From a virus, in the IMG/VR virus record IMGVR_UViG_3300012208_000007, positions 1-41,871 of that record: a DNA stretch of 41,871 nucleotides; one strand, given 5' to 3'. Positions within the stretch are counted from its first letter, which is position 1. Every line of letters begins with the position of its first letter. Position numbers and translations under genes: made by a program. A model generated the notes under the pieces. The model saw nothing but the letters and a program-made list of their open reading frames with translations, did no database searches and was not told where the DNA came from. This document shows positions 5,522-34,290 of this stretch, one piece after another.

Positions 5522-6052
5522 CTACGCGGTCGGCCTGCCGGCAGTGCTCGGTACTGTCGCACGGTTCTTCTCCTTAGCTGGCGAGGCCAGGGCACGAATG
5601 GCTTTTAATCCACGAATTACGCCTTTCAGCGCGTCTCGATGGTTGCTGTATTCATCCTCAAAAGCTTGCGCCGCTTCTTCCAGCGCCTCGCGCCGCACCT
5701 TTTGATCGTGTGCGGCGAGGGCTGATTCAACACGCTCCCATTGCGATGGCCTAAAGACTATTTCATAAGGAATAAGTTCCTCTGAGTTCTCAGAAATCTT
5801 TGTCCAACGACTGCGGATGACTTTTTTCTTTAATGCTTCCTCCAGTGACTCGCGACTCGCGGCTTGCTCGTCCAGGCCTTCCTCTAGAACTTTTACATAT
5901 TCGGGAACGGTTTCAGAGTCAGCGGAAATGGCCTGTTCTAATTCGTCGGCGCACCATAGGATGCGTTTTGTTTCATCCATATCCGGCCTAAGTGCAGGAG
6001 ACTCTTTTGCTACTTTGCGCCATCGCGCGATCAATTCTCGCAAGTCGGTCAT
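5522..6052 (-). CDS. Helical phage protein with AAHDQKVRREALEEAA motif
   Basis: 176 residues from the ATG at 6052, inside the 3' end of the CgeB-like gene. It is Glu/Arg-rich and helical. The segment ALAAHDQKVRREALEEAA recurs, altered, in the protein at 40100-40744, so the two are probably distant paralogues. Such motifs are common in uncharacterised phage proteins. It ends in TAG. Confidence 0.7.
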   Translation of the reverse strand: MTDLRELIARWRKVAKESPALRPDMDETKRILWCADELEQAISADSETVPEYVKVLEEGLDEQAASRESLEEALKKKVIRSRWTKISENSEELIPYEIVFRPSQWERVESALAAHDQKVRREALEEAAQAFEDEYSNHRDALKGVIRGLKAIRALASPAKEKNRATVPSTAGRPTA

Positions 6053-12879: not shown

Positions 12880-13752
12880 CTAAGAAGGCCCGACCTGTGT
12901 CACTAAAATCACGCACCGGCATCGAGGGTGCGCGCCCGGAAAAAGGTCGCCGGAAGGAAACGGCTGGCCCAATTCCACTTCCACGCCATCGTTCTCATCG
13001 CAAATTCCGCAGACATTTTCATCCTCAGAAGTGGTCCAGCGGATTTTCTTGACGAGCCCGCTGTCGCGCCAAACGATGAAGTTGCCGCCTGCTTGCGCGT
13101 TAGAAATTTCCGTTCGCGAAATCAATTCCGCGCGCGCCTCGCTGAAAATGCCATTGCCTTCCGCTTCATCGGCAAGCGCCTCCTGGATGGCGGTTTTGAT
13201 TTCTTCAAACGGCGAATCTTCCGTAAAAGAATCGGCCACAATCTCGCGGATCCGGTCCCGGGTGGTGTTCGATATGGCCCATTTAGCGTCCGGGTTCTGA
13301 ACGAGATTCCCTTCGACGTCGCGTTTCATGCCAACCATTTCGGCGGCACGCTCGCGAGCATAATTTTCGGCGGTGGTATTGGCCGAGGAAATCAAGCCAG
13401 CAGTCGAGAATTCAATCTGCAGAGCTCCCTGACCGATCCCGGAGAGCATCGCGGATTCGAGTGCCGGCTGGATCTCGAGCGGCAAGCTTTCCCATTCCTT
13501 TTCTAGCGCGGCAATCAGAGCATCGGCGAAGGCTTGGACATCGTCATCAAGAGACTTTCGGAGCAGCTTCGCGTAGCTTTTCGAAGCGTGGGGCCCCGCG
13601 ATAGAGTTGGCCGAACTGAAAGCGATGCGTTCGCGCTCGGCCGCGGAATCGCCCTGATGCTTTTTCCATTCGCTGTTGAACACGTGCAACCATTGACGGC
13701 GGCGCGATTTTGGAACGTAGGCAGGTACCTGCGACTCGCTAGAGTAAGGCAC
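12880..13752 (-). CDS. Phage head morphogenesis protein (SPP1 gp7/Mu F-like)
   Basis: 290 residues from a GTG at 13752 overlapping the portal stop. The N-terminus (SESQVPAYVP...FSSANSIAGP) resembles the ChaB-like segment seen at the front of such proteins. The C-terminus holds the diagnostic minor head motif: RTEISNAQAGG, WTTSEDENVCGICDENDG, then HPRCRCVI, a Cys/His set. Family role: minor capsid protein that associates with the portal. It ends in TAG. Confidence 0.82.
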   Translation of the reverse strand: MPYSSESQVPAYVPKSRRRQWLHVFNSEWKKHQGDSAAERERIAFSSANSIAGPHASKSYAKLLRKSLDDDVQAFADALIAALEKEWESLPLEIQPALESAMLSGIGQGALQIEFSTAGLISSANTTAENYARERAAEMVGMKRDVEGNLVQNPDAKWAISNTTRDRIREIVADSFTEDSPFEEIKTAIQEALADEAEGNGIFSEARAELISRTEISNAQAGGNFIVWRDSGLVKKIRWTTSEDENVCGICDENDGVEVELGQPFPSGDLFPGAHPRCRCVILVTQVGPS

Positions 13753-16048
13753 GGCGGACCCTTTCGCTCGGCAACATCAGTTTTTCGAGATCCTGAACGG
13801 TGTAATCGACTCCCGAAAAAACCAAACTCTTCAACGTAAATACTTCCTCTTCAAGCGGGTTGCCGGCATCTACATATTTCTGCGCATCGGCTTTTGGATC
13901 CAAGTACGCAACGCAAACATGCGGGCGATATTCCGGATGTGTTTCGGTATGCGGGAGCACTTTCAAATCTTCGTGCAGCTTCCGGAGTTTTCCGCTTTCA
14001 ACAAGCATCACCAGAGGTATGCCGTCTTCATTTTCCGGAAAGGCCTCGAGCGGCCCGATCGTGACGTCCAGCTCGCCAGTCCCGCGCGTGATTGCTTCGA
14101 TTTGATCCTTGGTCACGGATTCATGAAAGCCCCATAAAACCGTGCAGTGCGGCTGCATGTCGCGACCCTTTTGTGCAAAATCTTCTTCATCGACTGGAAT
14201 CGCCAGCACGCGCTGGGCATCATCGGCCGAAAGATTGAATTGGACGCTGCCGTATTTGCGTTTACTTAGAACATTGCCAAGAATTTTCTGGAATCTGCCG
14301 GAAACCGCCGCGAGCTGGGAGCGGAAAACTTTCCCGACGGCATGCTGGATGGCATGGACGGCCTGTTCGGATTCAGCTGTCAGTACGCCGGCTTCAATAC
14401 GCGATCCGAGCCGTTTTTCGAATAGCGCTTCCTGAAGTTTTTTTTTACCGTCCAGGCTTTCTTTGCCGTTATCGACCCCGGTGTTTCTTCCCGTCGACCG
14501 GCCACCGCCGGCTTCCTGGCTGACGGGTGTGCCGCCGCGTGTGGCATTGTGCCCGCCGGCGCCGTTCGTCGCGGGCTTCGGAGGCGGTGCCGTGGGCGTT
14601 ACCGGATGTGGACGAATAACTCCCTTTTCATCGACCATCAACCCCGCGGTTGCCGGAGCAACGCCCACTGGAATGAATCCTGTCCCACTGATCACTCCGA
14701 GCTGGTCGGCTTCCGGCTCCGGCCGCAATTCCTCGCCAACACGCTTCCGGGCTTCATTCGGGGTCAGGATGGCCTTCCCGACCAGCATCGTGAGCGCGGC
14801 AGCATTCTTCAGTGGATCCGGCTCGGCATACGGGTTGATCGCGATTTCATAATCGACCATCCCCATCTTCCGCTGGATGATGAAATCGATGATGCCTTTG
14901 ACCCAGAGCACCCATGGCAGCGTTCCTTCGACTTCGGCGGCGTCTGAAGACGATTTGCCTTCCGTGCGGATCATCTTCATCAGGCGTTGCGGACTTGTGC
15001 CGTAACCGAAAGCGATTTCGCGGATGTGTTTCTCGTCATAGAGCCCGGCAAGGAGTGGCTCTTTAGGAAAAAGAATTTGATCGACTTTGCCAGGCTCATT
15101 GAATCCCTGCACGAGCCGCCATTGGTTGCGCTTGGCGAGGTTCCCGGCCAGCTGCGAGTTCATCCATTCCATCGCTTCTTCGATGCGGTCTGGCGACGTT
15201 CCACGTGGAACCACTTGGACAACGCCGGGGACGCTGCCCTCGGTGTAATACGCAAGGACGAATTGCAATCTCTTGATGCCGATTTGAATTTCAGGGGCAA
15301 GCTGCTCAGTGGCCGAATTTCCGTAGAGCTGAGAAGCCATCGTATTCCGTGGCACAATACTTCTAGGTTTATATACTAACTGGTCAGTAGTGAGGTCCAC
15401 CCAAGGCATGCCCCAATAATTTTGGGCATAGGCAGGATCTGGCGGCATCGGCGTGAAACCATTGTTGTCAATATACCTTGTTATCATTTCGCCGCGAATG
15501 ACTGCCAGTTCCGCAATCTCGCCTTTGTATGTCTTACGCATCAAAACCGAGGGTGCGTCGATCACGAGAAGATCATCGAGTAGCGGACGCAGCCATTCCT
15601 GCCAGTTGTGTTCGCGGTCGGGATACTCAAAGAACCGGTTCAGCTTAATCAGATCGTCTTTATTGTCTTTGGCGCGCTGCGCTACGTCCTTGCGAGACTC
15701 CATTGGGTTGGCACGCAACTGGATTTCCCAAGGAGCGCGCGTGACCGTATCTTTCACGTTCTCGATGCAGATCCGCGCCAAAGGATAAGTCGCGAGCGCT
15801 TTCAAGTCCGCGGCGGAAAATTCCGCGTCGGCGCGGGGGGTAAAAATCATGTTCTGCCCGGACCAGGTTTGGAATTGACGCGGCTCGCTACCTGGCCCTC
15901 CCAAAGGCTTGATTGGCTGGAATGGTGACCCCCAATTGTCAGGATCGATCCCGCGGATGGTATCGGCAGGTTTTTGATAAAGCGACCGGAGTCCTTGCAC
16001 CAATTGTGCAACAGGACGAATCACGAGACCGGTGCGACCATTTGCCAT
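13739..16048 (-). CDS. Portal protein with C-terminal 2H phosphoesterase-like domain
   Basis: 769 residues, well above the usual 400-550 for portals. Residues about 1-480 have portal features (FEYPDREHNWQEWLRPLLDD, FKDPLK-like segments, NEARKRVGEELRPEPEADQ near 440-460). A Pro/Gly linker and a coiled stretch follow. Residues about 610-740 carry PHCTVLWG (H634) and RPHVCVAYL (H710), the paired H-x-S/T-x-like motifs of 2H phosphoesterases; the second has Cys in place of Ser/Thr. Portals form the DNA entry ring; the enzymatic tail could act on 2'-5' or cyclic phosphates (inference). It ends in TAG. Confidence 0.85.
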   Translation of the reverse strand: MANGRTGLVIRPVAQLVQGLRSLYQKPADTIRGIDPDNWGSPFQPIKPLGGPGSEPRQFQTWSGQNMIFTPRADAEFSAADLKALATYPLARICIENVKDTVTRAPWEIQLRANPMESRKDVAQRAKDNKDDLIKLNRFFEYPDREHNWQEWLRPLLDDLLVIDAPSVLMRKTYKGEIAELAVIRGEMITRYIDNNGFTPMPPDPAYAQNYWGMPWVDLTTDQLVYKPRSIVPRNTMASQLYGNSATEQLAPEIQIGIKRLQFVLAYYTEGSVPGVVQVVPRGTSPDRIEEAMEWMNSQLAGNLAKRNQWRLVQGFNEPGKVDQILFPKEPLLAGLYDEKHIREIAFGYGTSPQRLMKMIRTEGKSSSDAAEVEGTLPWVLWVKGIIDFIIQRKMGMVDYEIAINPYAEPDPLKNAAALTMLVGKAILTPNEARKRVGEELRPEPEADQLGVISGTGFIPVGVAPATAGLMVDEKGVIRPHPVTPTAPPPKPATNGAGGHNATRGGTPVSQEAGGGRSTGRNTGVDNGKESLDGKKKLQEALFEKRLGSRIEAGVLTAESEQAVHAIQHAVGKVFRSQLAAVSGRFQKILGNVLSKRKYGSVQFNLSADDAQRVLAIPVDEEDFAQKGRDMQPHCTVLWGFHESVTKDQIEAITRGTGELDVTIGPLEAFPENEDGIPLVMLVESGKLRKLHEDLKVLPHTETHPEYRPHVCVAYLDPKADAQKYVDAGNPLEEEVFTLKSLVFSGVDYTVQDLEKLMLPSERVRRALL

Positions 16049-33604: not shown

Positions 33605-33634
33605 TTGACAGCGCAGACGGGAATCTGGCAAAGT
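33605..33634 (+). promoter_or_regulatory. Promoter-like boxes before the PTH2-like gene
   Basis: TTGACA (33605-33610), 18 bases, CAAAGT (33629-33634) preceded by TGG, an extended -10. Start would fall about three bases before the ATG at 33644, giving a nearly leaderless message. Confidence 0.45.
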
Positions 33635-33643
33635 CTTCTCGTT

Positions 33644-34165
33644 ATGACCTAGATCGAATCTTACGTTTACGTTTTTGTCCGCACCAACCTTCCGACCGAA
33701 CATCAGTTTGTGCAAGCCCTTCATTCCGTCTATCATCTGGCACAACTCCGCCGCGAAGAAGGCACGCCCAACATCGTCCTGATTGGGTTGCCGGATGCGG
33801 CGACGCTCCGGCGCGCGGAACGGAAGCTCATTGCCGCGAAAATCCCGCATTTTGTTTGGGAAGAGCCGGACTTTAATTTTGGATTGACCGCCATTGCTAC
33901 GGCGCCGGTACGCGGCGACCAGCGGAAAGCACTGGCCAATTACCGAGTTTACAACCATGCGTCGGTAGCTCAGATAGGCCGTATAGAGCAGTCGGTTCTA
34001 ACCGGAAGGCCGCAGGTGCAAAACCTGCCCGACGCTCCAGATTTCAACACACCTGTCGTACAAGTGGCTAGTACACTGGACTCTAAATCCGGAAATGATC
34101 GTTCGACGCGATCCAGGTGTGCCAAGTTCGATGGGGCAGGTTCGGAGGCATCCGAGCGGGTTTGA
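33644..34165 (+). CDS. Peptidyl-tRNA hydrolase 2-like protein with in-frame amber at codon 3
   Basis: The reading frame starts ATG ACC TAG ATC GAA TCT, then YVYVFVRTNLPTEHQFVQALHSV, IVLIGLPDAATLRRAERKL and HFVWEEPDFNFGLTAIATAPV. This order (VRxDL, QAxHA, strand, helix, EPDxxxxxTAIA) is that of PTH2-like phage proteins, which release peptides from drop-off peptidyl-tRNA. No ATG, GTG or TTG lies between the TAG (33650-33652) and 33710, which would remove the first strand. The domain should end near 33955, but the frame runs on without stop through two tRNA genes to 34165. Only readthrough or an ATC start would yield the full domain. Confidence 0.5.
33959..34039 (+). tRNA. tRNA with CTA anticodon (amber), atypical
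   Basis: Seven-base acceptor GCGTCGG/CCGACGC pairs perfectly; discriminator T and encoded CCA follow. D stem GCTC/GAGC encloses a long 14-base loop. The anticodon arm has a CGG/CCG core and a six-base loop TTCTAA, placing CTA after U33. The T stem GCAGG/CCTGC is perfect, but its loop reads TGCAAAA. The long D loop and short anticodon loop make it a divergent or decaying tRNA. Confidence 0.6.
34049..34124 (+). tRNA. tRNA with CTA anticodon (amber suppressor), class I
   Basis: Acceptor ACACCTG/CAGGTGT, discriminator G, encoded CCA. D stem GTAC/GTAC with a 9-base loop containing GG. Anticodon stem CTGGA/TCCGG with one wobble, loop CTCTAAA: U33, anticodon CTA, A37. T stem GATCG/CGATC with loop TTCGACG. 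Every arm is canonical, so this is a convincing UAG-reading tRNA. The charged amino acid cannot be read from the sequence. Confidence 0.85.
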
Positions 34166-34184
34166 GTACCAACTGCCCCCGCCA
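34133..34184 (+). other. tRNA-like remnant without anticodon arm
   Basis: GGGGCAG pairs with CTGCCCC across 52 bases. Inside are a D-arm-like TCGG/CCGA hairpin with AGGCAT loop and a GGTTTGAGTACC segment. A CGCCA tail follows. Too short for a tRNA; probably a deleted fourth tRNA or a processing hairpin between two tRNA genes. Confidence 0.3.
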
Positions 34185-34190
34185 AAAGTT

Positions 34191-34290
34191 CCGGGCGTAG
34201 CTCAAGGGTAGAGCAATCGGTCCCTAAAACCGACAGAGCAATCGATTACTAATCGATTGGTTGCGGGTTCAAGTCCCGTCGCCCGGTCCA
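34191..34290 (+). tRNA. tRNA with CTA anticodon (amber suppressor), class II
   Basis: Acceptor CCGGGCG/CGCCCGG, discriminator T, encoded CCA. D stem GCTC/GAGC with loop AAGGGTA. Anticodon stem TCGGT/ACCGA with loop CCCTAAA, so anticodon CTA with C at 33 instead of U. A long variable arm has a 9-base stem CAATCGATT/AATCGATTG. T stem GCGGG/CCCGT with loop TTCAAGT. The long arm places it with Ser/Leu/Tyr-type tRNAs. Confidence 0.8.

Follow-up and report, generated by a model that had tools for sequence, protein, structure and literature searches.

A start-proximal amber codon in a PTH2-like gene upstream of a tRNA cluster

The window, a virus record of 41.9 kb, carries on its plus strand a gene that opens with ATG ACC TAG (33644-33652), that is, a start codon, one further codon and an in-frame amber stop, an arrangement we refer to as the gate. 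If the TAG is read, the frame extends from 33644 to 34165 and ends at a TGA (34163-34165). The conserved domain occupies 33653-33955, and the tail that follows it is encoded, on translation, by the first two of three tRNA loci and by part of a tRNA-like element; this cluster lies directly downstream on the same strand. In the window gene, no usual start codon follows the TAG ahead of the conserved domain. A +1 frameshift of the RF2 type at the window gate was also considered and rejected, since the PTH2-like frame continues in frame past the stop. By-eye reading identified a promoter-like sequence on the plus strand at 33605-33634, made up of TTGACA (33605-33610), an 18-bp spacer and CAAAGT (33629-33634). 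The spacing is identical in two relatives of the window (G001 and G002), and a third (G003) has a better -10 (TAGAAT). Because this sequence ends 9 nt before the ATG, the mRNA is predicted to be nearly leaderless; a similar leaderless arrangement was seen in mycobacteriophages.

The product of the gated frame was assigned by structure prediction and profile comparison. An AlphaFold2 model of 33653-33955 (pLDDT 92.5) was searched with Foldseek, and the top 14 matches were all members of the PTH2 family (best matches all PTH2/Bit1; TM 0.66-0.79). A profile of the family matched PTH2 (peptidyl-tRNA hydrolase) chains at 1.2e-6, and 8 of 13 homologues matched PF01981 at E values up to 1 (best 1.7e-6). 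Searches with the window protein itself gave no match in Pfam and no homologue in the plasmids examined. Judged from the model, the window protein has a PTH2 fold and is a predicted hydrolase; as it is divergent and the window copy has no Pfam match, we named it PTH2-like. Some homologues (L092, L093, L159 and L160) are fusions, in which an HD-like region precedes the PTH2-like domain within a single long frame and the gate opens the fused gene.

Two predicted amber suppressor tRNAs and a tRNA-like element

The sequence-only reading of this locus had proposed three tandem tRNA genes with encoded CCA, all with a CTA anticodon. All three loci, which lie in tandem on the plus strand and each encode CCA, exceeded the gathering score of the Rfam tRNA model (29 bits): tRNA1 at 33959-34039 (39.4 bits), tRNA2 at 34049-34124 (49.6 bits) and tRNA3 at 34191-34290 (55.7 bits). 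The proposed tRNA genes were thus recovered at their positions, and the CTA anticodon was upheld for tRNA2 and tRNA3 and ambiguous for tRNA1. tRNA2, a canonical class I tRNA inside the PTH2-like frame, was called by ARAGORN with CTA (anticodon loop CTCTAAA; the program's label tRNA-Pyl denotes a CTA anticodon and nothing more), and other clade members carry a CTA tRNA at the corresponding position. For tRNA3, ARAGORN returned Val(aac) by default, which is wrong, and CTA in intron mode. The minimum free energy fold of tRNA3 is a five-arm class II tRNA with a long variable arm and the loop CCCUAAA (CTA, C33; z-score -4.4), in agreement with the class II tRNA with C33 described earlier. The Rfam alignment takes the second hairpin for the anticodon arm, which would give ACT; this alternative was ruled out by comparison with a relative (L186) in which the first hairpin, GGTCCCTAAAACCG, is retained and the second is different, supporting a CTA anticodon in the first. 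Sequence, fold and conservation support tRNA2 and tRNA3 as predicted amber suppressor tRNAs.

tRNA1 is atypical, as had been suggested, with a long D loop and an anticodon loop of 6 nt (TTCTAA) that contains CTA; it passed the Rfam threshold, was missed by ARAGORN at default settings, and did not form a cloverleaf in free folding. It is missing from most clade members, and its counterpart in G002 has the loop TTTTAA (TTA-like). With an ambiguous anticodon that is not conserved, tRNA1 is doubtful as a CTA reader. The presence of the same cluster in related phages, which had been named as a check, was accordingly seen for the tRNA2 counterpart and mostly not for tRNA1. The earlier set of three was also incomplete, as it overlooked a 52-nt tRNA-like element on the plus strand at 34133-34184, which we delineated by folding and comparison with relatives. 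This element has a 7-bp acceptor stem, a 7-bp hairpin with a GGCA tetraloop, a short T-like arm and CCA, and it contains the stop codon of the PTH2-like frame. Three relatives have CTA where the window has the GGCA tetraloop, and with this loop a D-armless tRNA with a working anticodon is unsupported in the window. Clade members carry two to four CTA-type tRNA or tRNA-like elements; since tRNA2 alone is clearly conserved throughout the clade, the count of three looks secondary.

TAG usage in the window clade

Three relatives of the window (G001, 91.8 kb; G002, 178.9 kb; G003, 164.9 kb) were located via the terminase and a neighbouring protein. They have a cluster of CTA tRNAs at the place corresponding to that of the window, set apart from the ~30 ordinary tRNAs that they carry in other parts of the genome. 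TAG usage was assessed by coding-frame segmentation of the window and the three relatives (~480 kb), considering likely coding frames only; a six-frame comparison was unusable owing to false matches from shadow frames of conserved genes. This analysis revealed that all four genomes share only one in-frame TAG, the third codon of the PTH2-like gene, which starts with ATG-ACN-TAG in the window, G001, G002 and G003, in pairs down to 37% identity. Outside this gene, TAG was an ordinary stop in all four. A TAG-recoded (code 15) phage would be expected to have in-frame TAG in many genes, and the single conserved instance found here argues against TAG reassignment, the context in which the sequence-only reading had placed the tRNAs.

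The PTH2 frame was open through tRNA2 or its counterpart in eight divergent members of the clade. In 6 of the 8, the window included, the frame closed within the T-like loop of the tRNA-like element; it stopped just past the tRNA in L185, and only past tRNA3 in G003, where it passes another TAG. As the frame spans tRNA2, a given transcript would either be translated in full or be processed to tRNA, but not both. Two further features were noted in these genomes. A TCA-anticodon tRNA is present in G002 (134529-134602, locus L070) in addition to the CTA tRNAs, and the window encodes on its minus strand (13739-16048) a portal protein with a C-terminal 2H phosphoesterase/Acb1-like (anti-CBASS) domain.

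Gated PTH2-like genes are found across diverse phages

Homologues were collected by tblastn against isolated phages and by scans of IMG/VR (subsets of closer homologues). The first set, clustered at 90% identity, comprised 52 groups, 46 of them gated; the second set, grouped by inspection, added 22 gated and 6 ungated groups. In the resulting 68 non-redundant gated groups the start codon is followed by 0-7 codons and an in-frame stop, which was TAG in 66 groups, TGA in 2 and TAA in none. A later out-of-sample match outside the 68, LR756502, is also gated (MKN followed by TAG). Gates with TAG were identified in Serratia phage BF (after MTH), Cronobacter phage GAP32 and Pectobacterium phage CBB (both after MAQ), Acinetobacter phage ME3 (after MT), Salmonella phage Arash (after ML), and XacN1, RAS14 and Tenacibaculum phage pT24 (all after MK). 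The PTH2 domain follows an HD-like region in XacN1 and RAS14, and the ATG-AAA-TAG of the XacN1 HD-PTH2 gene lies upstream of the annotated start. The mycobacteriophages Alice and Myrna open the gene with ATG-TAG and GTG-TAG, respectively, and have a CTA tRNA ~0.5 kb downstream. A Shine-Dalgarno-like sequence precedes the gated ATG in many groups. In many records the annotated PTH2-like gene begins too late or the gene is not annotated; in GenBank this applies to BF, GAP32, CBB, Arash, Alice and others, where the annotation places the start past the stop or omits the gene. In L199 (LR756500), a short frame after the PTH2-like gene also begins with ATG AAA TAG, possibly a second gated start.

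The gate stop and the suppressor anticodon agree

Of the 68 gated groups, 62 had a suppressor tRNA that matches the gate stop, mostly near the gene; for most records the search extended over 12 kb surrounding the gene, and for some over more. ARAGORN missed some suppressors (L140, L186 and L243), which were picked up through similarity or with Rfam and then read by eye. Both TGA-gated groups (L179 and L252) have TCA tRNAs and no CTA tRNA. Of the evidence that the phage tRNA reads the gate stop, this match between stop and anticodon is the strongest. The six groups for which no matching suppressor was found comprise five short contigs and L256, a large gated genome in whose scanned pieces no CTA tRNA was seen.

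Most ungated homologues came without a suppressor: none was identified in the scanned sequence of RaK2, Hallingskeid, Aeromonas 65 and L144, or in the ~12 kb scanned for L178, L262 and L270-L272. L165, L254 and L261 (CTA) and LR745208 (TTA) are ungated yet have a suppressor; L254 has an out-of-frame, gate-like ATGCGTTCTTAG upstream of its ungated homologue. Atu_ph07, which has an opal suppressor and an annotated PTH, was predicted to be gated; its PTH proved ungated and belongs to another PTH2 subfamily. For RsoM2USA, there was no homologue among the tblastn matches listed. In the first 52 groups, suppressors were present and absent in 44 and 2 gated groups versus 1 and 5 ungated groups (Fisher P = 5e-5, uncorrected for common descent), an association that is indicative only, as the groups share ancestry and the counts are not independent.

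A proposed lock-and-key switch

Taken together, these data make it highly probable that synthesis of the PTH2-like protein depends on a suppressor tRNA and that the two act as a lock-and-key recoding switch. The gate, its conservation and its agreement with the anticodon are apparent in the sequences compared; from these we infer that the gate stop is read through, and that the gate imposes a delay or limit on a ribosome-rescue-type enzyme. The PTH2-like gene would be locked by a UAG, rarely a UGA, placed 0-7 codons past the start, and the key would be the matching suppressor tRNA or tRNAs encoded by the phage, in the window directly downstream on the same strand. While charged suppressor is absent, ribosomes would halt having made only a very short peptide. 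Transcription, processing and charging of the phage tRNA would then allow the stop to be read and the hydrolase-like protein to be made. In the window clade, each transcript would be contested by PTH2 translation and tRNA maturation, and this may create a self-limiting loop. We lean slightly towards the broader proposal of a widespread circuit in which the stop co-evolves with the anticodon and, in the window clade, the mRNA and tRNA share one RNA in a homeostatic loop.

The gating may serve as a delay until the tRNAs are charged or as a sensor of the competition between release factor and suppressor. The sensor reading rivals the purpose and not the gate itself: the gate would gauge RF1 (at UAG) or RF2 (at UGA) against the suppressor, and hydrolase output would track suppression, whose run-off products yield the peptidyl-tRNAs to be cleared. 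We regard this reading as possible, while leaning against it. The gate stops are all RF1- or RF2-specific and never TAA, the fold is of the peptidyl-tRNA hydrolase type, and prfB provides a precedent in which a start-proximal stop autoregulates a translation factor (PMC12421855). tmRNA genes lie within 6 kb of the gated gene in two phages (L243:4327-4652 and L256:41-423), and passages on jumbo-phage PTH2 in Iyer et al. assign it to ribosome rescue (PMC7824862); on account of these two observations, a rescue-related role for the PTH2-like protein is favoured with moderate confidence. However, the ungated PTH2-like genes in phages in which no suppressor was found indicate that the protein does not serve solely in cleanup after suppression.

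A second alternative, that the suppressors serve general read-through or replace tRNAs cut by host defences and that the gate merely exploits them, appears unlikely. It would account for the suppressors that occur without a gated PTH2 gene in Atu_ph07, L165, L254 and L261, and for the two or more CTA tRNAs of several phages, but not readily for the agreement of gate stop and anticodon, nor for the position of the window-clade CTA tRNAs, which adjoin the gated gene apart from the main tRNA arrays. We consider it very improbable that the stop closes a tiny leader frame, with the PTH2-like gene re-initiated at the codon that follows the stop or from a non-standard start, and the tRNAs as mere neighbours. 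A start codon does follow the stop in 8 of the 68 gated groups, including the GTG directly after the TAG in the mycobacteriophages, chosen by annotators, and annotators elsewhere also favour a later start; in L150 an ATG follows the TAG. The other 60 groups, however, lack an ATG, GTG or TTG in the stretch from the stop to the PTH2 domain, the codon that follows the stop varies (AAT, ATT, ACT, GTT and others), and re-initiation leaves the pairing of TGA-gated genes with TCA tRNAs unexplained. Reassignment of TAG in late genes, as in code 15, with the PTH2-like gene as one example, can be practically dismissed, for although such phages typically carry CTA tRNAs (PMC13037316), TAG is an ordinary stop outside this gene in the coding-frame analysis of four genomes.

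Relation to known systems

No prior description of a link between the gate and suppressor tRNAs was found in the literature searched, which comprised open-licence papers. The bar minigenes of phage lambda, which have a start codon, very few codons and a stop and are linked to peptidyl-tRNA hydrolase, are free two-codon minigenes in which no suppressor tRNA is known to be involved; here, in contrast, the start and stop open a pth-type gene and are accompanied by a suppressor tRNA. In prfB, which encodes RF2, autoregulation operates through a programmed +1 frameshift at a stop near the start (PMC12421855). The PTH2-like gene resembles it in that the protein would be made only if a stop shortly after the start codon of a translation-factor gene is bypassed. 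It differs in that prfB uses a frameshift with RF2 as the sensor, whereas the PTH2-like gene has an in-frame stop to which a dedicated phage tRNA corresponds. As in code 15 phages, phage CTA tRNAs would read UAG in phage genes; in those phages UAG is a sense codon in many genes (PMC10879173, PMC9523058), whereas here it ordinarily terminates translation and would lock a single gene just behind the start codon. The PTH2 of jumbo phages is a protein of the same type; it is treated as a ribosome rescue factor in PMC7824862, and the passages concerned make no mention of a start-proximal stop or a suppressor link. The case of XacN1 is similar to ours in having phage CTA tRNAs without genome-wide recoding; its two CUA tRNAs had no identifiable target according to the authors (PMC5852040), and the papers on Atu_ph07 and RsoM2USA report suppressor tRNAs without specifying target genes. 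The suppressor tRNAs of non-recoded phages had no known targets, and the PTH2-like gate provides a concrete candidate that spans dozens of lineages, including the isolated Mycobacterium smegmatis phages Alice and Myrna. If correct, it would be a clear example in which a stop codon locks one specific gene and a dedicated tRNA serves as the key.

Finally, a different arrangement was observed in two homologues. In L144 (~5960-6010) the ATG frame meets a TAG, and in Myxococcus phage Mx1 (L281, ~2470-2505) it meets a TGA, with the PTH2-like domain in the +1 frame in each case; no suppressor tRNA was found in the stretches of L144 and Mx1 that were scanned. This +1 relation, as in RF2 frameshifting, would reflect either a frameshift gate or a sequence error.
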